Notes: generated by a model not told the origin, from the letters alone. A DNA stretch of 64,000 nucleotides from Nitrospira sp. (GCA_036984305.1 BQWY01000001.1:248001-312000); one strand, 5' to 3'; shown: positions 48,262 through 63,428, numbered from the stretch's first letter. A program made the numbers and translations.

Positions 48262-48282
48262 TTGACAAGTCTCTATTTTAGT

Positions 48283-48297
48283 TGATATCAGTTATCA
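48283..48297. promoter_or_regulatory. Fur-like box A, upstream of RNA element A
   Basis: TGATATCAGTTATCA is a five-base inverted repeat with a five-base centre. It matches 11 of 14 informative positions of the Fur 7-1-7 consensus TGATAATnATTATCA. A TTGACA lies at 48262 and TATCAT at 48293 could be a -10 hexamer, so Fur binding would block RNA polymerase. It sits 47 bases before the shared RNA core, as does box B. Confidence 0.65.
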
Positions 48298-48410
48298 TAC
48301 TCAATAATCGAATGGCGACGTTCTAGACAGCGATTAGTCGGCTAGAGGCCAGAGTACTTTGAGTCCCGAGCCCATGAGCCAGCCCTTGGCCGGCCATGGG
48401 CTTTCTTTTT
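48298..48410 (+). ncRNA. Repeated structured RNA element, copy A (before tonB)
   Basis: The core GAGGCCAGAGT is at 48345-48355. A short hairpin (ACT-TTG-AGT) follows at 48356-48364, then a long hairpin AGCCCATG (48369-48376) / CATGGGCT (48395-48402) with GCC/GGC inner stems and the T-run TTTCTTTTT. A possible 5' stem pairs TCTAG (48322-48326) with CTAGA (48342-48346). The same arrangement occurs before bfd and fecI. It may be an independent small RNA or a terminator-type leader of tonB. The 5' end is estimated. Confidence 0.6.
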
Positions 48411-48491
48411 GGTCGAGAGGATGCCGACAGAAGCGAGGCTTTTCAGGTGGACTTAGGGCGTCGGGCAACTAACGCGCAGGTTACGCTCGTA

Positions 48492-49487
48492 ATGCCGTCG
48501 ATCTCAGATGCAACTGCAACACAGCGGCTTGCACTGAGCGCACGGAATGGCTCCTTCTCACACCTATATCGCCAAAGCACGGTTGCCTTGTGCGAGGCAC
48601 ATTATTGGGTTCGATGTCGTCCGACTCATAAAGGCCGGTTACCAGCCCATCGAGTAGGTTGGGTGGTATCGATCCTCGTTCACTGTCTGCTACTGACCTC
48701 GATGATCCTCGTTCACGCTCTGACGACTTCGGAACCCCCGGTCTTTCATCCCGAAGTGTTTCGGTGGGATATCTCATTGATCTCGGCACTCAGACCCAAC
48801 CCCATTATGAGTGATGGGCTACGGTCGCAAGGTGATGGGCTCCTTGGCGACTCCCCTCGTCAAGCGATGGCTGAGAATCAATCCATCCAACAGCCCGAAG
48901 ACGCACACCGTGCCTCAGCGGAACCCGTGATCCGAAGTGCAAATCCTGTCTCCCCGGCAAGCAAGCCGCAGAAGGGCAGGCCGGTGCGCACCCATCACAG
49001 CCCGAACCCGATTGCGAATGACGTCATTCAAAGGAATTCAACCGCAGGGGTTGGGACAGGTCCCTCCTACACACCCCCAGATCATGTGAGCGCCGAGCGT
49101 GAATCGCATTTACTCCAGGTCGCCACCACGCTGGAGCGGCTCTTAGTAAGACAGAGACCACCTCGCGTCAACAAACCGGTCGTCAATCGAATGATTGTGC
49201 CGAATTACACCTGGTTGATGGACACCTTGCGAGACAAGGTGGAAGAAGTCAAAGCGTATCCTGCGCTGGCGAAGATAAACCATTGGCAAGGACGGGTCGT
49301 CATCCAAGTTGAAGTCCTGGGTAATGGACGATTGCGGAACGCCACGATCGAACAAAGTTCCGGCTATCAGATTCTCGACGAGGCAGCTCTGGAAACGGTG
49401 CGAGCCGCCTCTCCGTTGAAACTCACACATGCGCTGAAAGGTGCGTTTGTCGTGATGTCTGTCCCCCTCTCTTATCAGCTGGATTAG
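48492..49487 (+). CDS. TonB-family energy transducer (copy 1)
   Basis: About 331 residues from ATG 48492. An earlier in-frame ATG at 48396 lies inside the terminator hairpin of element A and cannot be the main start. The protein has one inner-membrane helix (VGWVVSILVHCLLLTSMILV) and a long low-complexity periplasmic linker. The TonB C-terminal domain shows NHWQGRVVIQVEVLGNGRL, SSGYQILDEAALETV and PLKLTHAL. It transmits proton-motive force to outer-membrane receptors. exbB and exbD follow. Confidence 0.85.
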   Translation: MPSISDATATQRLALSARNGSFSHLYRQSTVALCEAHYWVRCRPTHKGRLPAHRVGWVVSILVHCLLLTSMILVHALTTSEPPVFHPEVFRWDISLISALRPNPIMSDGLRSQGDGLLGDSPRQAMAENQSIQQPEDAHRASAEPVIRSANPVSPASKPQKGRPVRTHHSPNPIANDVIQRNSTAGVGTGPSYTPPDHVSAERESHLLQVATTLERLLVRQRPPRVNKPVVNRMIVPNYTWLMDTLRDKVEEVKAYPALAKINHWQGRVVIQVEVLGNGRLRNATIEQSSGYQILDEAALETVRAASPLKLTHALKGAFVVMSVPLSYQLD

Positions 49488-49488
49488 C

Positions 49489-49737
49489 TCATGTCATCGA
49501 TGGAGCGTTCGCTGGGGGAATGAGAAGCAGGGAGTTCGGGTCGGGGTCGTGCTGCAGCCACAATTGTTCATTGGGAAAAGCGTGGATAGTCAATCGACCA
49601 TGAGCGTCGAGCCGCCGCTCTCCTTTCAGCAGCCTGCGTGATGGCCACTCCAGCTCTTCCTTGCAGGGAAGGTGTGGTTTTGTCTCGCTTGTTCGTCTTA
49701 AGAGATTGGAGGCCTCACAGGGGTAGGGGGACTTTTG
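49489..49737 (-). pseudogene. Start-less open frame, possible gene remnant
   Basis: An open frame of about 82 codons on the minus strand reads like protein (for example RRLDAHGRLTIHAFPNEQL and LQHDPDPNSLLLIPPANAP). It has no usable start codon in its first 45 codons. It occupies the gap between tonB copy 1 and exbB. It may be the tail of a decayed gene, or chance. Confidence 0.2.
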
Positions 49738-49762
49738 TCATTTTTAACCGAGGTGAACGATC

Positions 49763-50188
49763 GTGGACGCGCTGAAACACATGGTTGACTATGGGGTGAT
49801 CGGGCTCTTAATCGCGCTGAGCCTTTGGGCGCTGGCCGTGGCGGTGGAGCGGTGGTTATTTTACCGACGAGTCACGCCGCAGCAGTTCGACGACATTCAA
49901 ACAATGGAGATTGCGTTAACGAAACGGCTAGTTGTTATTGGCACGGTGGCTGCGAATGCACCGTACATTGGGTTGCTAGGGACCGTCCTGGGTATCATGC
50001 TCACATTCCACACGATGGGCACATCCGGCACTATGGCGGTGGCGACAATTATGGTTGGACTGAGCTTGGCGCTGAAGGCCACGGCAGTCGGATTGCTTGT
50101 TGCCATTCCGTGCGTGGTCTTGAATAACGTCCTCCGGCGCCGGGTGTCGGAATTGTTAACGTTGTACAAGGTGCAGCATGGAACGTGA
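49763..50188 (+). CDS. exbB: Short ExbB-family proton channel subunit
   Basis: With ExbD this 141-residue protein forms the proton channel that powers TonB. Three transmembrane helices and the conserved TVAANAPYIGLLGTVLGIMLTF and ALKATAVGLLVAIPCVVLNN segments are present. It is at the short end of the family, lacking the long N-terminal part of the E. coli protein, as in ExbB of some other phyla. A GTG start at 49763 follows GAGGTGAACGATC. It overlaps exbD by 11 bases. Confidence 0.93.
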   Translation: MDALKHMVDYGVIGLLIALSLWALAVAVERWLFYRRVTPQQFDDIQTMEIALTKRLVVIGTVAANAPYIGLLGTVLGIMLTFHTMGTSGTMAVATIMVGLSLALKATAVGLLVAIPCVVLNNVLRRRVSELLTLYKVQHGT

Positions 50189-50552
50189 CATTGATCAAAT
50201 CAACGTCATTCCGCTGGTCGACGTCATGCTGGTCCTTCTGGTCATCGTACTGACCACGGCCACCTTCATTTCGACCGGCCAGGTTCCAGTGGAACTGGCG
50301 AAAGCGAAGGAAGTTGGCGATCACAAGGATGTCCCATTGGTCATCACCCTGACAGCAGACGGTCGAATGTATCTCAATGATCAGCCCATTGCGCAAGAAA
50401 GACTCGCACCGTCACTCCATTCGCACCCACGGGAGTCCCTCGTGGTTGTGCGCGCCGATCGGGTAACGGTATTGGAGCGATTCGTCGGTGTCGTTGACGA
50501 AGTCCGAGGTCTGGGCTTTCGTCAAGTGAGTCTCGAGGTCGTACGGTCGTGA
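50178..50552 (+). CDS. exbD: ExbD-family proton channel subunit
   Basis: This 124-residue protein has one transmembrane helix with the conserved Asp in NVIPLVDVMLVLLVIVLTTATF, and a periplasmic domain with VVVRADRVTVLERFVGVVDEVRGLG. With ExbB it converts proton flow into TonB motion. The stop overlaps the next tonB start by four bases (GTGA). Confidence 0.94.
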   Translation: MERDIDQINVIPLVDVMLVLLVIVLTTATFISTGQVPVELAKAKEVGDHKDVPLVITLTADGRMYLNDQPIAQERLAPSLHSHPRESLVVVRADRVTVLERFVGVVDEVRGLGFRQVSLEVVRS

Positions 50553-51661
50553 ACTCGGGCTCTAGCAGAGCGGCACTCACTCGTCATGCGCATGGCTGGG
50601 TCATGTCCTTGTGCTGTCATCTCTTGGGTATCGGTGGAGCGATGTATCTCTTTACACAAATTGAAGACCCCGCTCTTTCGAAGCCTTTTCAGTGGGACGT
50701 GGCAATCCTTGAACCCGCGCCTCCGCCTCCACAATCCCAGCCGGCACCGACGCCCGTTACCCAGGCTCGCCCCAAGGTGCAGCCCCTGCAGGAGCCACGG
50801 AGTGTGACCAGACCGACCCACGAGTCGCGTTCAGAGGTCCATCACATGGTACAGTCCAATCCTCACGTCTCTCCTCAACAGGTCGCGGTCTCAGAGACGC
50901 GACCTGTTCCTACCCCGGCCCGACGGATCGAACAGGTCGTGGGGACTCAGTCTATGATGAATGAAACAACGACTGCCTACCAGGCCGTGGAGCAACTCAC
51001 TGAACCTGTGCACGCGTCCACCGGATCTCGCGAGGTCCAACCCATATTGGAACAGGCCCAACAAAGTTCCGCTGCAATAAGCCGCCGAACAGAAGAGCGA
51101 GTGGTGCCAGAAACCCTCCCCCCTACTGAGACGGTCACGGCGGAAGCCGCTCCGGTTGCCGAGACGGTAACAGCGAGGGCCGTGGTCGAAACAACTCCGT
51201 CCGTTTCCAAGACTCACGTCCAATCAATCGAAGAGGCAGTGATGCAGGAGGTCGAGCCGACAACCCACGTTGAGGCGACGGTGCACCAGGCGCCCCAAGT
51301 CATGGAATCGACCACGACTGTGACACGTTCAGCCGTCGAGCAACGTCTTGTGAGGTTTCGTGAGATCGAGGCCGACTATGGGTGGCTGAGAGATTCGATA
51401 TGGAGTCGGATCCACGCCATAAAGCGCTATCCAGCTCAGGCTCGAGCCAACCACTGGGAAGGGAAAGTCGTCGTGCGGGCTGTGATTCAGGCTGATGGCA
51501 CCGTCGCGGATGTGGCGATAGCGGAGAGCTCGGGGCGGGCGGTCCTTGATCAGGATGCAATGGCGGTAATGAAGGAGGCCTCCCCATTGCGGCTCAAGCA
51601 TCCGCTAGGGAAACCGCAGGTGACGATTCTCATTCCAATTAGTTATCGACTCGAGGGCTAA
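50549..51661 (+). CDS. tonB: TonB-family energy transducer (copy 2)
   Basis: This 370-residue protein starts with GTG inside the exbD stop (GTGA). A membrane helix (WVMSLCCHLLGIGGAMYLF) is followed by a Pro/Gln-rich periplasmic linker and then a long Val/Thr/Glu/Gln-rich region. The C-terminal TonB domain has NHWEGKVVVRAVIQADGTV, AESSGRAVLDQDAM and ASPLRLKHPLGKP. It forms a complete ExbBD-TonB set. The copy before exbB differs in sequence and may serve other receptors. Confidence 0.9.
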   Translation: MNSGSSRAALTRHAHGWVMSLCCHLLGIGGAMYLFTQIEDPALSKPFQWDVAILEPAPPPPQSQPAPTPVTQARPKVQPLQEPRSVTRPTHESRSEVHHMVQSNPHVSPQQVAVSETRPVPTPARRIEQVVGTQSMMNETTTAYQAVEQLTEPVHASTGSREVQPILEQAQQSSAAISRRTEERVVPETLPPTETVTAEAAPVAETVTARAVVETTPSVSKTHVQSIEEAVMQEVEPTTHVEATVHQAPQVMESTTTVTRSAVEQRLVRFREIEADYGWLRDSIWSRIHAIKRYPAQARANHWEGKVVVRAVIQADGTVADVAIAESSGRAVLDQDAMAVMKEASPLRLKHPLGKPQVTILIPISYRLEG

Positions 51662-51731
51662 TGCCCTAGGGGGCTAGAAACGCGTGCATAACCTTCTATG
51701 GAAACCATGTGAATCACCAAAGGAGTGACCC

Positions 51732-52190
51732 ATGACTCGCCAGACGATCGCAGTTCCTCTTTCGCTCATTGCCAATGCGTGTTTGGGCATTGTCATGATG
51801 TTGCTTACAGGTATGCCCAGCTGGGCCGAAAATAAAAGCGAGAAGACATTTCACGCAGTCGCGGTGGATACCAAGGGCGTCGAGACGGACGTCAAGAACA
51901 TCATTTTCTATTGGGAAGAGAAGATCAGCGAGACAGCGTTTGTCCCTCATGAGCTGAGGGAGGTTCCCGTCAAGCGGGGTACTGCCACGGTCAAGATCAA
52001 ATTTGATGCGATCAAACACATCGACCTCAAAGCATCCGGCAACGGTGCACCACCCAGCGTCCACATTACATTGAACGACGGGAAAACTGGAGAATTTGCA
52101 CTGGCCATGGCCGGGAGTTTTAGAGGGCAGTCTGATTTCGGAGAAGTGGAATTGCCTGCCGCAGAACTCAAGCGGCTAACATTTAAATGA
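51732..52190 (+). CDS. Exported protein of unknown function in the tonB operon
   Basis: This 152-residue protein has a signal peptide (VMMLLTGMPSWAEN, cleavage near residue 32). The mature domain looks beta-rich with repeated alternating patterns (ATVKIKFDAIKHIDLKASGN, VHITLNDGKTGEFALAMAG). An AAAGGAG precedes the ATG. It follows tonB copy 2 and could be periplasmic support of the transport system. I do not recognise the family. Confidence 0.65.
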   Translation: MTRQTIAVPLSLIANACLGIVMMLLTGMPSWAENKSEKTFHAVAVDTKGVETDVKNIIFYWEEKISETAFVPHELREVPVKRGTATVKIKFDAIKHIDLKASGNGAPPSVHITLNDGKTGEFALAMAGSFRGQSDFGEVELPAAELKRLTFK

Positions 52191-52411
52191 TATGTGATCG
52201 TCTCTGCAGTACTGGCTCGGCCGTTGATATCGGATGGAGGCAGCATCAGGAGCGCACTCCGATTCGACGTTGACCGGTGTTGAACCGATGATTCCGAGTT
52301 GATCCGTACCCATGACCAAATGAGCGACGCTAATTTGTATCGGGATGGTGCGATCACGTATTCCTGGCTGATATCGTTGCCCCTGGGATTTATGCCATGT
52401 GAGAGATGTCC

Positions 52412-52582
52412 ATGACCGGTCCGCGCGGTCCAAGTACCTCTTCGATGGATGTGCGCTGCGGCTGCGGCAAGTTGATTGCTCGGTGGCAAGGCGACAGTCT
52501 GGTCATCAAGTGCACGCGTTGCGGCCGCCTCTGCACGATACACCGGTCCTCAATCCGCGGTACATCGCCGTCGGATGCATAG
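52412..52582 (+). CDS. Com-like zinc-finger microprotein, 56 aa
   Basis: A 56-residue frame with CGCGKLI and CTRCGRLC knuckles. VRCGCGKLIA and VIKCTRCG resemble the Com protein of Mu-like phages, a zinc-finger translational regulator (family knowledge). There is no phage context here, so it may be a domesticated relative or an independent zinc ribbon. The frame is clean and precedes the ZIP transporter gene. The roughly 300 bases between them hold no clear gene. Confidence 0.55.
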   Translation: MTGPRGPSTSSMDVRCGCGKLIARWQGDSLVIKCTRCGRLCTIHRSSIRGTSPSDA

Positions 52583-52886
52583 TTCAAGCCGGGGAATCCT
52601 CGCGACTACGCTGTCAGTGTTGGAATCTATGCGGTATCCGTGTATACATCTGCTTACACCCAAGAAATAGGCGGGGGGGACTGTGTGTTGGGGATCCTCC
52701 CCACAAACTTCGATCGAAACCTGTACCGGCGGAATCTGGGACCACCGAGGGCACCGAAAATCTGAGACTTCGCGCGAATCGGCGGCGAGACACCGTCAGG
52801 TCGGTTTGCTCGCAGAACCACGCTGCCAAATCTGCCATGAGACAGGTGGAACATCTCCTCCGCCCGAAACAGTTGAATCTCTCTCC

Positions 52887-53639
52887 ATGCTAAATCTTCT
52901 CGGCCTTGGCCTCGTCGCCGGTGTCATCCCTGTCTACCTGGGAATCCTTGCGGCCTTGGCACTCGGAAAAATGCTGCCCCGGTCGTGGGAAGGTGGACTG
53001 ATTGGGCTGGCCACGGGAGTCCTGCTGTATTTGTTTTTTGACCTCATGCATGAAGCGGTCGAACTGAGCGGCGCTCGAGACGTGCTCTCATGGCTGGTAT
53101 TCCTTGGAAGCCTTGGAGTCAGCCTCATCGGCTTGGTCCTGCTGGAATCCAGACAGATCTTTACGGGACATAGAACCGATCGATTCCTTTCACTGCCCTA
53201 CATGATCGCCCTGGGCATGGGACTTCATAACCTGGGAGAAGGCTTGGCGATCGGGGCAAGCTATGCCGGTGGGGATTGGACGCTCAGCACACTGCTGGTT
53301 ATGGGCTTTGCGCTGCACAACGGTACCGAAGGATTTGGGATCGTCGGTGCAGCAGGCAAAACGCCGATCCAATGGCGGGATGCACTGTGGCTTGGACTGC
53401 TGGCGGGAGGCCCCACCTGTCTTGGGGCGGCCATGAGCGGGCAGCAGTTGTCGCCGTATTTCTCCATTGCATTTTATACACTAGCCGCAGGGTCGCTTCT
53501 CTATGTGATTTTTTCACTGACGACCATTTCCTATACCGCCACGAGGCGCCTGCAGGTGGCAATAGGTGTAGTAGCCGGAATAGCACTGATGTTCGTGACC
53601 GCCATGCTGCTCACCGTATGGAGTGGCATTCGGACCTGA
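52887..53639 (+). CDS. ZIP-family metal transporter
   Basis: About 250 residues from ATG 52887. Eight hydrophobic helices fit the ZIP fold. The two metal-binding helices carry HNLGEGLAIGASYAG (HNxxEGLAIG) and ALHNGTEGFGIVG (HNxxEG). ZIPs import zinc and often iron or manganese. The frame reaches back to 52683 but the extra residues do not look membrane-like. The bfd region follows. Confidence 0.9.
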   Translation: MLNLLGLGLVAGVIPVYLGILAALALGKMLPRSWEGGLIGLATGVLLYLFFDLMHEAVELSGARDVLSWLVFLGSLGVSLIGLVLLESRQIFTGHRTDRFLSLPYMIALGMGLHNLGEGLAIGASYAGGDWTLSTLLVMGFALHNGTEGFGIVGAAGKTPIQWRDALWLGLLAGGPTCLGAAMSGQQLSPYFSIAFYTLAAGSLLYVIFSLTTISYTATRRLQVAIGVVAGIALMFVTAMLLTVWSGIRT

Positions 53640-53734
53640 AGCACGAGAGAATTCCGACCTACCGTATTCAGGACAAAAAACCGTAGAAAATCGGAATCGG
53701 ACTGCACGAAAGGCTTGCAATACTGAGTTTGCAC

Positions 53735-53749
53735 TGATATTGTTTCTCA
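53735..53749. promoter_or_regulatory. Fur-like box B, upstream of RNA element B
   Basis: TGATATTGTTTCTCA matches 11 of 14 informative positions of the Fur 7-1-7 consensus. TTGCAA at 53715 and TATTGT at 53738 form a plausible promoter (17-base spacer) that the box overlaps. It lies exactly 47 bases before the shared RNA core, as in copy A. Confidence 0.6.
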
Positions 53750-53860
53750 TAATCAATATGGAAGAAGCCGCTATTATTGAGCGGCATGCAGTCGGCGAGG
53801 CCAGAGTCATTATCTGACGGAGCCCAAGGTCATCTTGAGATGCCTTGGGCTCATTTATTG
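53750..53860 (+). ncRNA. Repeated structured RNA element, copy B (before bfd)
   Basis: GCCGCT-ATTATTG-AGCGGC forms a 5' hairpin (53767-53785). The core GAGGCCAGAGT is at 53797-53807. A 4-bp hairpin GTCA-TTATC-TGAC follows at 53806-53818, then GAGCCCAAGG (53820-53829) and CATC, looping TTGA, to GATG and CCTTGGGCTC, with the weak tail ATTTATTG. The layout matches copies A and C. It ends 24 bases before the bfd start. Confidence 0.6.
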
Positions 53861-53883: not shown

Positions 53884-54084
53884 ATGTCAAGGATTCTCAT
53901 GTTCCTCTGTTTGTGCAGGGGCATCCAGGATCATGAGTTTCGCGAACTCGTCGCACTCCATGGACCGTGTCCCGCAGCACTCGCTCGAGCGATGGGATTG
54001 GACGAGAGCTGCTGCGGCCGATGCGAGGCGAAGCTGGAAAACATGATCCGCAGGGCGGAGCTTCTACCACGTGACATGGCATAG
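53884..54084 (+). CDS. bfd: Bacterioferritin-associated ferredoxin (Bfd-like)
   Basis: This 66-residue protein has the BFD [2Fe-2S] arrangement: CLC at residues 9-11 (CLCRGIQDHEFREL), and CCGRC ending at Cys 47. Bfd transfers electrons to bacterioferritin to release stored iron and is typically induced when iron is scarce. I place the start at ATG 53884, because earlier in-frame ATGs lie in the RNA element. No bacterioferritin gene is in the window. Confidence 0.75.
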   Translation: MSRILMFLCLCRGIQDHEFRELVALHGPCPAALARAMGLDESCCGRCEAKLENMIRRAELLPRDMA

Positions 54085-54102: not shown

Positions 54103-54255
54103 ATGAAGAAAGATGGAGCATGTCAAAAATGCGGGGGGCTTCTCGTGCCGGATCCTGAACTTAACTTCTATCAGTCGCCGCCACTTTGGAAATGTGTCAA
54201 TTGCGGTCGGATGTGGGGAAGAACCCACGGGCGTGATCAAGTCAACAATGGGTGA
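54103..54255 (+). CDS. Zinc-ribbon microprotein, 50 aa
   Basis: A 50-residue frame with a GAGG before ATG 54103. CQKC (Cys 7 and 10) and CVNC (Cys 31 and 34) knuckles lie around a Pro-rich middle. A short 47-base gap precedes the next gene, so it is likely in one transcript with bfd. A longer open frame in another phase overlaps it, but its start makes less sense. Confidence 0.6.
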   Translation: MKKDGACQKCGGLLVPDPELNFYQSPPLWKCVNCGRMWGRTHGRDQVNNG

Positions 54256-55117: not shown

Positions 55118-55294
55118 ATGAAAGTGCGTGGCTGTCCATATTGCTCACAACGAATGCTGTTTCAAACCGGCGCCTTCTGGGCTTGTGCAAACTGCGGATA
55201 TGCCATCACCCAAAGCGCACTTCTGGTTGACGAGGCAAGCGCCAAACGGGGAGGGAAGGCCGCTATGGCCGACTCGGTTCCTAGAAAAGGCTAA
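55118..55294 (+). CDS. Zinc-ribbon microprotein, 58 aa
   Basis: ATG 55118 with GGAGG nearby (GCGGAGGGACTTT). The 58-residue product starts MKVRGCPYCSQRMLF and has a second knuckle CANC 17 residues later, followed by a basic tail. It is a third tiny zinc ribbon in this region, 12 bases after the preceding gene, and so likely co-transcribed. Confidence 0.6.
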   Translation: MKVRGCPYCSQRMLFQTGAFWACANCGYAITQSALLVDEASAKRGGKAAMADSVPRKG

Positions 55295-55994: not shown

Positions 55995-56086
55995 AAGAGA
56001 AGAGATCCAAAGTGTCCGCGATGACTCGCAGTTGCGTTGGCGGTCCCAATGCAAGGACACGAGCGATGCCTGATTCAGGAGAGGCT

Positions 56087-56417
56087 ATGCAATACTCCCG
56101 AATGTCATTGGCCGCGATTCTGCTGCTCTTCATCGGCTCCGCAGGATTGCACCACAAGGCCTGTTGGTCTAACAGAGTCTCAAGCCGTTGCCGGAACCCC
56201 TCATCCCGTGCGAGACGGCGATCGGTGTCTCGATGGCCTGAAAGAACACGGCTATGTCGAGGCCTGCATGACGGCCATCTCTAGAGAGCCCGACACCCCA
56301 ATTCGCGATGTGCCCGGATCGGCGCAAATCCTCAATCGACAGGTGATTGAGGACCAGCGGGCCTTGCGTCTCGGCGACGCGCTACGCAACGCCAGCGGGG
56401 TGCAACCCGCGCATTGA
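56087..56417 (+). pseudogene. Remnant of a TonB-dependent receptor gene
   Basis: ATG 56087 begins a signal-peptide-like stretch (MQYSRMSLAAILLLFIGSAG). A frameshift near 56155 leads, in another frame, to plug-domain sequence: RDVPGSAQILNRQVIEDQRA and ALRNASGVQPAH, then a stop. The intact receptor at 59765 has QVPQSVEVVTRKVIEDQRGV at the matching place. The barrel is missing. I infer a truncated and frameshifted TonB-dependent receptor. Confidence 0.65.
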
Positions 56418-57960: not shown

Positions 57961-57975
57961 TGAGACCGCTTCTCA
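57961..57975. promoter_or_regulatory. Inverted repeat C, possible Fur or regulator box
   Basis: TGAGACCGCTTCTCA is an inverted repeat (TGAGA-N5-TCTCA) with the same 15-base size as boxes A and B, but it matches only 9 of 14 Fur consensus positions. It lies 21 bases before the shared RNA core. Confidence 0.4.
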
Positions 57976-58060
57976 ATATCAGAATAAACGGGCGCTGAGG
58001 CCAGAGTCTATGAAGACGGAGCCCGCGGCCATCCTGTGGATGGCCGCGGGCTTTTTTGTT
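57976..58060 (+). ncRNA. Repeated structured RNA element, copy C (before fecI)
   Basis: The core GAGGCCAGAGT is at 57997-58007. A hairpin GTCT-ATGA-AGAC follows at 58006-58017, then the perfect 15-bp hairpin AGCCCGCGGCCATCC (58020-58034), TGT loop, GGATGGCCGCGGGCT, and TTTTTGTT. The GTCT/AGAC pairing differs from copy B (GTCA/TGAC) by a compensatory change, which supports real RNA structure. It ends 54 bases before the fecI start. An in-frame ATG at 58010 lies inside it and is not a start. Confidence 0.65.
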
Positions 58061-58114
58061 GCACCCCTGTGGCTGATGTCGGTTCAGCCTACGGTGCTGG
58101 AAGGCACGCTTCAG

Positions 58115-58633
58115 ATGACACTGACATTTGCGCACATTGAGGACCTTTTTCATCGATACCGGGAGGAGCTGACACGGCGCCTCTTCACTATGGTCCATTC
58201 ACGAGAGACGGCCGCGGATCTCGTCCAGGAAACCTATGTCCGGCTCTTACGGCTCGCCGATACCCAGCCAGTGGAGCAGCCTCGCGCCCTGCTTCATCGG
58301 ATCGCCACGAATCTCGCCATCGATCATTTGAGAGCCTCTCGGAACGGACTCGACCTGGCAGATTCCTTGGATGAAGCGACCGCTGTGGCTTGTGAAGCGC
58401 CGTCACAAGAACGCGACCTCCTGGGCAAGGAACGGTTTCGCCTCTTCTTGCAAAGTATCGAGCAACTCCCTCCCCGCTGCCGTGAGGCATTCCTCCTGCA
58501 TCGGGTGTACGGGTATTCCTATCGGGAGATTGCCGCTCAAATGGGGATTTCAGACAGCGGGGTCGAAAAATTGTTGATGCGTGCGCTTGAGCAACACTGT
58601 GCGGTATTGGAGCGGCTAGACCGGCGTGAGTGA
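58115..58633 (+). CDS. fecI: ECF sigma factor (FecI type)
   Basis: About 172 residues from ATG 58115, with GGAAGG upstream. Region 2 is RRLFTMVHSRETAADLVQETYVRLL and region 4 is LPPRCREAFLLHRVYGYSYREIAAQMGISDSGVEKLL. It would transcribe the receptor operon when FecR signals. The frame to 58010 is an artefact crossing the RNA element. Confidence 0.93.
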   Translation: MTLTFAHIEDLFHRYREELTRRLFTMVHSRETAADLVQETYVRLLRLADTQPVEQPRALLHRIATNLAIDHLRASRNGLDLADSLDEATAVACEAPSQERDLLGKERFRLFLQSIEQLPPRCREAFLLHRVYGYSYREIAAQMGISDSGVEKLLMRALEQHCAVLERLDRRE

Positions 58634-58702: not shown

Positions 58703-59695
58703 ATGGAGCCGCGCGGGCCGGAGCCGATCACTTCGCCTTCCACTGATGCAGGAATTCAGCACGAGGCCATCGCATGGGTGATTCGTTTGCGAGGGGACGA
58801 CCTGGCGCCGGGGGAACGTCGAGCGTTTGAGGTGTGGTGGGGCGAGAGCCCGGCTCATGCAAACAGCTTCGAAAGGGTATCCAAGGTGTGGGATGACCCG
58901 GCGCTGCATGCGGCGGCAAATCAAGCAGCCCAAAAAAGTACGCGAGCGTTCGGGGTGGTTAAGTCAGGGAACGTCCGGCGCAGGATCGTAGTTGGAAGCG
59001 CTGTTGCGGCCTGTCTCCTCCTGCTCGTAGCCATCGCAACAAATTTCGATCTCCTGATCAGCTCGCCTGCGGATTATCACACTATCGCGGGGGAGCGTCG
59101 GACGATCGAATTGCCCGATCGGTCCACCGTGACGCTGAACACGCAATCCGCCATCGCTGTGTCGTTCGAGGAATCGATGCGTCGAGTGCGTCTACTCGAA
59201 GGAGAAGCGTTCTTCAAAGTGTGGCGCGACCCCGATCGTCCGTTCGTGGTGGAGGCCGTGCGCACCGCGACGCGAGCCATCGGCACCGCATTCGTCGTCC
59301 GCACCGACCGCAGTCACGACGAGGTCACGGTGCTCGAAGGACTCGTCGAGGTGGATTCACTCGCTACCAGCGGGTCAGGTCTACGCGTAACAGCGGGGTC
59401 TCGCGTCCAAGCGTCGGGAGGTCGGATGGGCCAACCCTTCGCGACGAATCTTTCGACGGCAGCCGCCTGGCTAAAAGGCCGGCTCATCGTCAATGGAATG
59501 CCCTTCGCCCAAGTGCTGGATGAGCTGCAGCGCTATTACCCGGGTACTATCGTCCTCTGGAATCGACGCGTTGGTGAGATGCAGGTCACGGGAACGTTCA
59601 ATCTGGACGATCCATCAAAAGCGCTCTCCCTGCTCATCAAAACTTTTCCGGTGCGAATGATCGATCTGTCTGATCGCTTCGTCCTTCTCTACTAG
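58703..59695 (+). CDS. fecR: FecR-type anti-sigma regulator
   Basis: This 330-residue protein has an N-terminal DUF4880 helical part (AIAWVIRLRGDDLAPGERRAF) that binds FecI. A transmembrane helix (about residues 97-116) is followed by the FecR domain (YHTIAGERRTIELPDRSTVTLNTQSAIAV) and a DUF4974 C-terminal part (VLDELQRYYPGTIVL). It relays the signal from the outer-membrane receptor to FecI. Confidence 0.94.
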   Translation: MEPRGPEPITSPSTDAGIQHEAIAWVIRLRGDDLAPGERRAFEVWWGESPAHANSFERVSKVWDDPALHAAANQAAQKSTRAFGVVKSGNVRRRIVVGSAVAACLLLLVAIATNFDLLISSPADYHTIAGERRTIELPDRSTVTLNTQSAIAVSFEESMRRVRLLEGEAFFKVWRDPDRPFVVEAVRTATRAIGTAFVVRTDRSHDEVTVLEGLVEVDSLATSGSGLRVTAGSRVQASGGRMGQPFATNLSTAAAWLKGRLIVNGMPFAQVLDELQRYYPGTIVLWNRRVGEMQVTGTFNLDDPSKALSLLIKTFPVRMIDLSDRFVLLY

Positions 59696-59764: not shown

Positions 59765-62269
59765 ATGGTCGTGAAGGCGCCCCGCGCGAGGCAGAGATAT
59801 CTGAAGGCAGCGGTTCTAGTGGTTCTTGTAGTCATGCTGGCGGCTCAAGCCGTCAGGGCAGCAGAAACGCTTCCCGCACAGGAGACCGTAGCAGAGCGGC
59901 AGGGGACGACCGTGCTCCCGTTTAGTATTGCTCCTCAGTCGTTGGCCTCGGCGCTCAATGCCTTCGCCGACGCAACCGGCTGGCAGATCAGCTTTCCAAC
60001 CGAGTTGGCGGCCGGGATCAAATCTCCGGGTGCCGCCGGAGACTATGTGCCGGAGGAGGCGTTGCGAAGATTGTTAGATGGAACCGGCCTCACGTACCGC
60101 ATGACGGATGCGAATGCGGTGACTGTGGTCAAGAATTCAACTGAAACGAGCGCGGCACCGGCGGCCATCGTTGCAGAATCATCCATGACGTCGACCGCAT
60201 CGAATGAAGGCACTTCTGCGACAAAGGCGAAGCCCGTCAAGGTTCCGGAGGTTGTGGTTAAAGACACACAGATCAGAGACGACGCCACGGATTATGTGGC
60301 TCCACAGTCCAACACCGCGACGCGCACTGACACGCCGCTCATCCAGGTGCCGCAGTCCGTCGAGGTGGTGACCAGGAAAGTCATCGAAGATCAGCGAGGG
60401 GTTCGCGTCGAACAGGCGCTCCGAAACGTCAGCGGCATCTCGCTCGGTGATGTCGGCCAATCCGGTATTGCAGCCGATGTGGCTTACTGCCGCGGCTTCC
60501 CATGCGGCTATTTCAAGAACTTCCTCAGGAACGAAGACCAAAACCAAGTGCTGACGTATCGGGATATCGCCAACATCCAACGTCTCGAGGTTCTCAAGGG
60601 GCCGGCGTCGGTACTCTATGGCAGAAGTGAGCCGGGCGGAATCGTGAACATCATCACGAAGCAGCCTTTGGCGGATCGGTATGCTTCCATCGATCAAATC
60701 ATCGGAAGCTACAACTACTACCGAACCATGATGGACGTGACCGGTCCGCTGAATGAGAGCAAAACACTCCGCTTTCGGCTCAACGGCGCCTACGAAAACA
60801 CGGAAAGCTTTCGGGATATCGTGCGGGGACAGCGGTATTTCGTCGCGCCGGTCTTCACATGGATAGCTGGTGACCGTACGACTATTACGATTGACGGCGA
60901 GTACATCCGCGATCGTCGAACTCCGGACAGCGGTATCCCCGCGATTGGAACCGGGCTGGCACAGGTGCCCAACAGTCGGTTTCTCGGCGAACCATTCGAC
61001 ACAATGGCCTTTGAAGAGGGACGGGCAGGTCTCACCGTCGAGCACCGCTTTAGCAACGATTGGCGTATTGAAAGTCGCTTCAGGGCAGACCGGTCCACGG
61101 CGACGGCCTATCGCACCGTTCCCCTTGCGGTCTTGCCGGACAACCAATCGGTGGCACGATTCTTCTTCGATCAATTGGCGCCCATTTCGAGCTATTATTG
61201 GAGGAACGATGTGATCGGGAAGTTTCTCACCGGCTCGATTGGCCATGAGCTGCTGACCGGTGTCGAGGTAGGCCGGCAGTATGCCTCATACGATCAAGCC
61301 GCTGTGCCGTTCGACACCTTCAACTTCATCAATCCGGTCTACGGTCAAACGCCTGGGCCCACGCTGGGGTTGACACCGTTCAGCCATAGTTTCGCCAATG
61401 CCCTTGGCGGTTACGTCCAAGATCAGATTTCAGTGTTCGAGAACCTCCACTTCTTGCTTGGCGCCCGAGGCGATTACTTCTATCAGCACAGTAACGTCGC
61501 GGGAGTCGACACGAAGGCGGAGGATTTTGCGTTCAGCCCGCGCATCGGCGTGACCTATCAACCGCTATCGCCCATCGCATTCTACGCCAATGTCACCAGA
61601 TCCTTTGTCCCGAATTTTGGGCCGTTCACCGCTGCGAGAGATCAGTTCAAGCCGACGACCGGAACGCAATATGAAGCCGGCATCAAGATCCAAATCGTCC
61701 CGGGTCGATTGACCTCGACGTTAGCCTTTTATCGAATCTTGAAAAAGGATGTCCTCGCTGCTGATCCGACTAATCCGCTTTTCTTTGTCCAGACCGGGGC
61801 GCAGCGCAGCCAAGGCATCGAATTCGATTTGACGGCGCAACTGTCGGCTGCGTGGAAAGTCATTGCCACCTATGCGTCTACGGATGCACGGATCACAGCC
61901 GATACGACCGTGCCGGTCGGGAATCGCCTCCCCTTGGTCGCCAGGCATACGGGAAGCTTGTGGACCACCTACGATCTTCAAGAGGGGGCGCTGCGAGGCC
62001 TGGGAGCCGGAATCGGCCTCTTCGCCGTGGGTGAGAGGGCCGGCGACTTGGCGAACTCATTTGAGTTGCCGGGTTACGTACGAACAGATGCCGCGCTGTA
62101 CTATCGGAAGCCGGAAATCTTCGGGCGTACCAATCTGATTGCGCAATTGAATGTACAGAACCTTCTCGATCAGGAATATTTTTACAGCGGGGGACGGAGC
62201 CGGGCCTCGGCCGCATTTCCAGGCGCGCCGCTCACGTTCCTCGGGTCGATCAAGCTGGAATTTTACTAA
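59765..62269 (+). CDS. TonB-dependent siderophore receptor with signalling domain
   Basis: This 834-residue outer-membrane receptor has a signal peptide and a secretin/TonB N-terminal signalling domain (about residues 50-120: LPFSIAPQSLASALNAFADAT, RRLLDGTGLTYRMTD). A TonB-box-like VPEVVVKDTQ comes next, then a plug (QVPQSVEVVTRKVIEDQRG, LKGPASVLYGRSEPGGIVN). A 22-strand barrel ends in a C-terminal SIKLEFY. It belongs to the FpvA/FecA transducer class with FecI and FecR. The transported siderophore cannot be told from sequence. Confidence 0.93.
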   Translation: MVVKAPRARQRYLKAAVLVVLVVMLAAQAVRAAETLPAQETVAERQGTTVLPFSIAPQSLASALNAFADATGWQISFPTELAAGIKSPGAAGDYVPEEALRRLLDGTGLTYRMTDANAVTVVKNSTETSAAPAAIVAESSMTSTASNEGTSATKAKPVKVPEVVVKDTQIRDDATDYVAPQSNTATRTDTPLIQVPQSVEVVTRKVIEDQRGVRVEQALRNVSGISLGDVGQSGIAADVAYCRGFPCGYFKNFLRNEDQNQVLTYRDIANIQRLEVLKGPASVLYGRSEPGGIVNIITKQPLADRYASIDQIIGSYNYYRTMMDVTGPLNESKTLRFRLNGAYENTESFRDIVRGQRYFVAPVFTWIAGDRTTITIDGEYIRDRRTPDSGIPAIGTGLAQVPNSRFLGEPFDTMAFEEGRAGLTVEHRFSNDWRIESRFRADRSTATAYRTVPLAVLPDNQSVARFFFDQLAPISSYYWRNDVIGKFLTGSIGHELLTGVEVGRQYASYDQAAVPFDTFNFINPVYGQTPGPTLGLTPFSHSFANALGGYVQDQISVFENLHFLLGARGDYFYQHSNVAGVDTKAEDFAFSPRIGVTYQPLSPIAFYANVTRSFVPNFGPFTAARDQFKPTTGTQYEAGIKIQIVPGRLTSTLAFYRILKKDVLAADPTNPLFFVQTGAQRSQGIEFDLTAQLSAAWKVIATYASTDARITADTTVPVGNRLPLVARHTGSLWTTYDLQEGALRGLGAGIGLFAVGERAGDLANSFELPGYVRTDAALYYRKPEIFGRTNLIAQLNVQNLLDQEYFYSGGRSRASAAFPGAPLTFLGSIKLEFY

Positions 62270-62282
62270 GGCGCGTTGCCCG

Positions 62283-63428
62283 ATGACAGTCAGGACGTTC
62301 AGGCGCTGGTATTGGGTCCACAAGTGGTCCAGCCTCATCTGCACGGTTTTTATGCTTGTGCTCTGCCTGACCGGACTGCCTCTGGTCTTCGGCGATGAAC
62401 TGGCCGTATGGCTGGGAGAGGCGGTCGAGCCGCCCGAACGAGTCGACCTTTCTGCTCCCGTCACGTTTGATGCACTGATTCAAGACGCCCAACACAGGCG
62501 ACCGCAAGAGTATGTCAAATTTCTCGTCCACGACGACGATGAGGCAGTTTGGTTCGTGACGATGGGAGAGTCTCTGACCAGTCCCGAGAACACGGTCAGT
62601 TTCGCCTACGACTCTCGGACCGGGGCAATGCTACACCAACAGGCTGCCGACGAGGGAGTGGTGAACTTCCTTTTCAAGCTGCATGTCGAGATGTTGGCGG
62701 GACTACCCGGTACCTTATTTCTCGGACTCATGGGTCTGCTTTTCGTGGCCTCGACGGTGTCGGGCGTAGTGGTCTATGGCCCATTCATGCACAAGCTGCC
62801 GTTCGGAGTGGTCAGGCGCGAGGGAAGTGTGCGTCTCGCATGCCTTGACCTCCATAACCTTTTGGGTATTGTGACAGCCGTGTGGGTTTTCGTCGTTGGG
62901 CTGACAGGTGTGATCAACACGCTGGATCGGCCTCTCCTGGCTTATTGGCAGATGACCGACATTGGAGCAATGATAGCGCCCTTCAAGGATCGGCCGATCC
63001 CCGCGAGGATAGCTTCAGTCGACGTGGCCCTTCACGCGGCCAAATCCGCCGCTTCCGATATGAACGTGCGGTTCATCGCCTTCCCGGGCACCCCGTTTGC
63101 CGGTGCGCATCACTACATGGCCTTCATGCGAGGTCAAAGTCCTCTCACGTCGAGACTGCTGACACCGCTCCTCATCGATGCTGAGACCGGTGACGTCACC
63201 GCACGAGGCACGTTGCCCTGGTATCTGACCGCGTTGCTCCTATCGCAACCGCTCCATTTCGGCGACTACGGAGGTCTGCCGCTGAAGCTCCTGTGGGCCG
63301 TCATGGACATTCTTACCATTTTTATCCTGATCAGCGGCCTCTACCTCTGGTGGAAAAAGCGTGGGATGGCGGAGGATGCCTTGTTTGCCGAGGCGTTCCC
63401 CAGGCTGTCCGCACAGGGGATGATGTAA
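62283..63428 (+). CDS. PepSY-associated membrane protein (PiuB-like)
   Basis: About 381 residues from ATG 62283; the frame to 62151 overlaps the receptor end. An N-terminal membrane helix (RWYWVHKWSSLICTVFMLVLCLTGLPLVF) is followed by PepSY-type domains and further helices around LFKLHVEMLAGLPGTLFLGLMGLLF, LDLHNLLGIVTAVWVFVVGLTG and WAVMDILTIFILISGLYLWW. Such proteins sit in siderophore receptor operons and may reduce or release iron at the inner membrane. Confidence 0.9.
   Translation: MTVRTFRRWYWVHKWSSLICTVFMLVLCLTGLPLVFGDELAVWLGEAVEPPERVDLSAPVTFDALIQDAQHRRPQEYVKFLVHDDDEAVWFVTMGESLTSPENTVSFAYDSRTGAMLHQQAADEGVVNFLFKLHVEMLAGLPGTLFLGLMGLLFVASTVSGVVVYGPFMHKLPFGVVRREGSVRLACLDLHNLLGIVTAVWVFVVGLTGVINTLDRPLLAYWQMTDIGAMIAPFKDRPIPARIASVDVALHAAKSAASDMNVRFIAFPGTPFAGAHHYMAFMRGQSPLTSRLLTPLLIDAETGDVTARGTLPWYLTALLLSQPLHFGDYGGLPLKLLWAVMDILTIFILISGLYLWWKKRGMAEDALFAEAFPRLSAQGMM

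Follow-up and report, generated by a model that had tools for sequence, protein, structure and literature searches.

Three short repeats in the window, the 64,000-nt stretch of Nitrospira sp. DNA analysed here in its entirety (GCA_036984305.1 BQWY01000001.1:248001-312000), are copies of an apparently undescribed RNA element, each of which carries its own terminator and lies before iron-uptake genes. Nitrospira are major nitrite oxidisers and are genetically hard to study. The composition of the element, its operators, the genes that follow it and a candidate protein partner are described in detail below.

The RNA element and its distribution

Each copy is composed of a near-invariant GGCCAGAG segment, a covarying hairpin (P1) and a GAGCCC...GGGCUUUU intrinsic terminator. 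The window has three occurrences of GAGGCCAGAGT in all, each on the plus strand (48345, 53797 and 57997), and these mark copies A, B and C. The core GAGGCCAGAG, an exact repeat in all three copies that is also defined by the family alignment, spans 48345..48354 in copy A, where it is followed by P1 (48354..48366), a covarying stem in the family, and by a terminator with the form GAGCCC..GGGCTTTC then a T-rich tract (48368..48409) that is predicted from folds and covariation. The corresponding parts of copy B are the core (53797..53806), P1 with the arms GUCA..UGAC (53806..53818) and the terminator (53820..53860), and those of copy C are the core (57997..58006), P1 with the arms GUCU..AGAC (58006..58017) and the terminator (58018..58058). 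Both stems of copy B, and P1 of copy C, are predicted from the fold together with family covariation.

A covariance model built from an alignment of 24 copies in related genomes detected the element in 140 of the 172 genomes of the window's family and in 129 of 396 genomes across the phylum, mostly in the window's order, and found none in 0.80 Mb of control DNA of the same lineage. The genome that contains the window has four full-length places, the three described above and C1:1013387-1013449. Over 142 aligned matches, GGCC[AC][GA][AC]G hardly changes, whereas the bases on either side of it vary. P1 and the terminator stem both include compensatory changes, with 92.8% of cells paired, compared to 81.4% when shuffled and at most 45% when slid. 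Exact-pattern matches in other phyla fail the model (best 19.6 bits among the matches listed), and spread beyond Nitrospirota was discounted.

The novelty of the element rests on Rfam and a literature search. No Rfam family was matched at gathering score in the window or in the loci of nine relatives, scans of the A and B regions at a weak threshold returned chance matches only, and the literature search, which did not cover a large 2017 survey of bacterial RNA motifs, found no account of such an element.

In another family of the order (L248, L249, L254, L257, L259 and L260), a second conserved hairpin is located ~20-100 nt after the element. It has the form GCCGGGAGG...CCTCCCGGC with CTCCTCCTG inside, precedes an AraC-type regulator gene in L248, and has no Rfam match in the four of its loci that were scanned.

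Fur-type operators and promoters

The initial annotation described Fur-like boxes upstream of copies A and B, and this description is accurate. Both TGATATCAGTTATCA (48283-48297) and TGATATTGTTTCTCA (53735-53749) match 11 of the 14 positions of TGATAATnATTATCA, the 3′-end of each is exactly 47 nt upstream of its core GAGGCCAGAGT, and a match count to the 7-1-7 consensus identifies no other site of at least 11/14 in the 64 kb. As dinucleotide shuffles of the window are expected to contain ~1 such site, two boxes are not rare in themselves. The part not attributable to chance is their placement, since both are just upstream of two out of only three cores.

In the family, the operator is the 21-mer TGATATTGAGAAnnnnnnTCA, which occurs in both orientations and contains overlapping boxes within 21 bp. 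A 21-bp matrix derived from relatives only, though with orthologs of A and C among the relatives used, placed the three window sites at ranks 1, 2 and 3 (C, B and A). Given on the plus strand, these operators are located at 48283..48303 for copy A (11/14, rank 3, including the 48283-48297 box), 53735..53755 for copy B (11/14, rank 2) and 57961..57981 for copy C (rank 1, in reverse orientation). Copy C had been assigned a poorer box, TGAGACCGCTTCTCA, 21 nt before its core. The distance is correct and the box matches only 9/14 positions, but the first rank with the relatives' matrix contradicts its description as a poorer site. A genome-wide scan for Fur sites had also been proposed, and when the 4.35-Mb genome was searched for the family box the copy C site was the only perfect match. 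Allowing up to 3 mismatches, the family box has ~97 sites in the genome, compared to 12 for a reversed control pattern.

The best boxes in relatives reach 14/14 of the Fur consensus, and a box of at least 11/14 is present within ~125 nt upstream of 35 of 140 element copies, compared to ~1.1 in shuffles. An operator within 150 nt was found for only 57 of 141 elements. Among the 84 copies with no nearby box, 37 have one at 150-5000 nt upstream, and for several others the sequence does not extend far enough to decide. The background in these iron-rich loci is approximately one such site per 5 kb, so that a position near -3.6 kb, conserved in five genomes, counts as the better evidence. The fourth copy in the genome (L199:5387-5449, equivalent to C1:1013387-1013449, minus strand) lies between genes for a 170-aa membrane protein and an HD_5 protein, 3.6 kb downstream of a TTGACA and box and after a Com-like gene, a porin-like ORF and an FMN_bind gene. 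Its operon begins with the Fur box and the Com-like gene, an arrangement that recurs in L218, L231 and L237. Copies with no near box appear often to sit in operons headed by a Fur box.

In relatives, the box overlaps the -10 of a promoter with the form TTGACA-N17/18-TATTGA. Copy A has a putative promoter of this layout at 48262..48291 on the plus strand (TTGACA at 48262, N18, TATCAG at 48286), and by analogy with relatives a putative promoter for copy B is located at 53715..53743 on the same strand (TTGCAA at 53715, N17, TATTGT at 53738). In both, the -10 falls in the Fur box. Two Fur-family genes are encoded in the genome, one of them 11 kb from the fourth element copy. At the level of sequence, Fur control is well supported because the boxes are conserved in relatives, overlap promoters and lead iron-uptake genes, and because the genome encodes Fur.

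The shared distance of 47 nt had been treated as fixed and as consistent with a processed or defined 5′-end of the RNA. However, gaps between box and core range from 11 to 106 nt in relatives, so the distance is not kept, and the agreement between A and B is a coincidence. A promoter overlapping the box would set the 5′-end, which is enough to define it without processing. Fur control is thus the part of the original interpretation that is retained, whereas the argument from a fixed distance is lost, and the RNA core belongs to a leader element and not to a free-standing RNA.

Leader position and downstream genes

An SD sequence and ORF begin no more than 60 nt after the element in 54 of 142 copies, compared to 3 on the opposite strand and 10 at random positions. 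The shortest gaps between element and gene are 13-30 nt, leaving no space for a further promoter. Judged by this position, the element is a 5′ leader with a terminator directly before genes and not a free sRNA.

Genes downstream of family copies predict TonB, ExbB, FecI-type sigma factors, STN/TonB-dependent receptors and Bfd-like proteins, and further examples predict AraC regulators, MauG-like proteins, a multicopper oxidase, imelysin and HD-domain proteins. In the window, where the genes after copies A, B and C are on the plus strand, copy A is followed by a TonB-like gene (48492..49487, predicted start) and by genes for ExbB (49763-50188), ExbD (50178-50552) and TonB (50549-51661), a run assigned from Pfam PF03544, PF01618 and PF02472. 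The gene following element B starts 41 nt after it and predicts a Bfd-like [2Fe-2S] protein (53899..54084; PF04324, E=2.6e-4, below the curated cut-off). Copy C is followed by an ECF (FecI-type) sigma factor gene (58076..58633, predicted start), then by genes for FecR (58703-59695), an STN/TonB-dependent receptor (59765-62269) and PepSY_TM (62151-63428), all assigned from Pfam.

Two other reading frames were noted in this region. A 152-aa protein with a likely signal peptide, belonging to no Pfam family, is encoded after the TonB gene (51732-52190), and a short ORF at 56037-56417 ending in NRQVIEDQRALRLGDALRNASGVQPAH resembles a remnant of a TonB-dependent receptor plug, with an intact relative at 59765-62269. 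A leader peptide within the element was considered and rejected, as only 14 of 46 box-proximal copies have any ORF across the core, in mixed frames, and none has an SD-like site.

Fur-repressed sRNAs such as RyhB and PrrF have a Fur-type box over the promoter, produce a short terminated RNA and are found in several copies. The element resembles them in its box, terminated RNA and multiple copies, and a trans-acting family of this type, with short RNAs that end at the terminator and GAGGCCAGAG as the seed, would account for the Fur promoter, the short RNA with an intrinsic terminator and the several copies with one core. However, the element lies directly before genes, many copies have genes that start right after the terminator, others are inside operons with no near promoter, and Hfq is absent from this genome and from 20 relatives. 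An sRNA family is therefore considered improbable, though a released leader could act in trans as a by-product.

Another very unlikely reading is that the leader element only reduces the expression of downstream genes, either as a constitutive, unregulated partial terminator or as a repeat dispersed between genes. Any intrinsic terminator within an operon attenuates, and the copies are dispersed, but this leaves the near-invariant GGCCAGAG and the covarying P1 unexplained, as well as the strict orientation and the iron-type genes. Regulated termination in addition to Fur occurs in the iron-transport operon of Vibrio anguillarum, where it is achieved via an antisense RNA. The two share termination in iron operons besides Fur, and differ in that a repeated structured leader is found here.

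A Com-like protein and the predicted antitermination switch

The GGC of the core can pair with GCC in the 5′ arm of the terminator, enclosing a purine-rich internal loop and P1. This pairing, designated P0, may form an antiterminator. In RNA ending at GAGCCCA, the mean pairing probability of P0/P1 is 0.84, compared to 0.43 when the P1 bases are shuffled. At two loci, GGA:UCC keeps the P0 pair and loses the terminator pair, and one low-scoring copy (L157:1191-1256) carries GAC:GUC at P0. Support from covariation is thin because the pair is nearly invariant, and in isolated folds copies A and B of the window favour shifted partners over P0. We infer the P0 switch from these folding models. Three other readings of the same segment were dropped: a kink-turn formed by GGC-CAGAG and AGA-GCC, in which the presumed G.A positions vary; pairing of the core with the U-tract side (GAGGCC:GGCUUU), where the bases preceding GGCC vary; and a CsrA site, for which there is no conserved GGA.

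The Com protein family is known mainly from phage Mu. A Com-like zinc ribbon of 58 aa is encoded between copies A and B (52406..52582, plus strand) and is a candidate RNA-binding partner, narrowly passing the cut-off of PF10122 (23.7 bits, cut-off 22.9). PF10122 was matched at E<0.1 in 7 of 15 relatives of this protein, phrog_6417, a phage 'translational regulator' family, was matched by 15 of the 15 Com-like members tested, and the four metal-binding cysteines (CxC...CxxC) are invariant in 15 aligned members. Element loci totalling 0.93 Mb contain 44 Com-like genes, compared to none in 0.80 Mb of control DNA. The control stretches were selected by position, however, with no matching of their gene content, and some of this association could therefore be with iron operons and not with the element. 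In each of 40 cases compared, the Com-like gene and its nearest element share a strand, and 16 elements are preceded by a Com-like gene ending 3-46 nt upstream. For 99 of 141 elements, there is no Com-like gene within the locus stretch examined. The element often shows CC-A-GAG on both sides of P1. From this sequence context, the Com-like protein is a strong candidate for a factor that possibly reads the element.

Mu Com binds CC(N)2-3GAG or GAG(N)2CC in hairpins and was proposed to melt an inhibitory stem (PMC6483171). Mu Com with its mom mRNA site (PMC6483171) and the element system have in common a zinc ribbon of the same family and a hairpin motif of CC and GAG, and in the proposed scheme they would also share release of an inhibitory stem-loop. 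However, the target of Mu Com is the translation of a single phage gene, whereas here the inhibitory stem would be a terminator repeated across the iron regulon, and the spacing in CC-A-GAG differs from the CC(N)2-3GAG obtained for Com by SELEX.

L217:8821-8986 (plus strand) carries two tandem elements separated by 35 nt, and the start of a Com-like gene lies 13 nt beyond the second one, an order that may reflect autoregulation. The window also encodes two small zinc ribbons that differ in type (CQKCGG..WKCVNCG; CPYCSQ..FWACANCG), at 54103-54255 and 55118-55294. ORFs resembling these come first after the element in L155, L157, L158, L162 and L232, and a representative of this second type has no Pfam family above the cut-off.

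We estimate the chance as slightly better than even that the element is a cis-acting leader gating Fur-repressed iron-uptake operons through a second gate of the antitermination type, with the Com-like protein as the likeliest factor. Iron-loaded Fur would block a sigma70-type promoter with which the box overlaps. Under iron shortage, transcription would begin immediately downstream of the box, at a distance from the core of ~40-50 nt in A and B and less in C, and the nascent leader would first form the small P0 hairpin (GGC:GCC) around the internal loop and P1. A trans-acting factor, most likely the Com-like zinc ribbon encoded in the same operons, would hold this hairpin and keep the GAGCCC arm from the terminator, and read-through would reach the TonB/ExbB, Bfd, FecI or receptor genes. 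With no factor on the hairpin, the GAGCCC...GGGCUUUU terminator would form and a short RNA would be released. The direction of control and a second signal are likewise predictions of this scheme.

The LicT/SacY-RAT and ANTAR (EutV, NasR) leaders (PMC3369936) are similar to the element as modelled here in that a small hairpin overlaps the 5′ arm of the terminator, several copies are found before related genes, and the hairpin would be held by a protein. Unlike these leaders, the element follows other rules of sequence and loop, with neither an A1/G4 hexaloop pair nor the RAT consensus, the genes behind it are for iron and not for sugar or nitrogen, and the candidate protein is a zinc ribbon and not a CAT or ANTAR domain. 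Alternatively, the P0/P1 hairpin might itself bind a small ligand (iron, haem, a siderophore or a metabolite) and gate the terminator as a protein-free riboswitch. The size of the element and its near-invariant unpaired core beside a covarying stem resemble small riboswitches, and the terminator overlap and consistent gene context would also fit, but a family of RNA-binding proteins is strongly co-linear with the element and would supply a protein factor in place of a ligand, and the conserved core is short and has no Rfam relative. A riboswitch is thus regarded as unlikely.

An extension of the antitermination reading is put forward tentatively, and with more doubt than conviction: the iron regulon may have two locks, namely Fur and a dispersed attenuator read by a domesticated protein of the phage Com type, the four-Cys site of which would be a possible metal or redox sensor. 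The association with the Com-like protein does suggest that iron uptake has a second lock in addition to the Fur repressor. The element is apparently an RNA attenuator that serves iron operons lineage-wide, and the Com-like protein is a strong candidate for its partner. The attenuator hypothesis is open to inexpensive in vitro transcription and reporter assays. If it is true, Fur control of the iron genes of Nitrospira would gain a further layer that acts after initiation, and the Com-type protein family would gain a cellular role.
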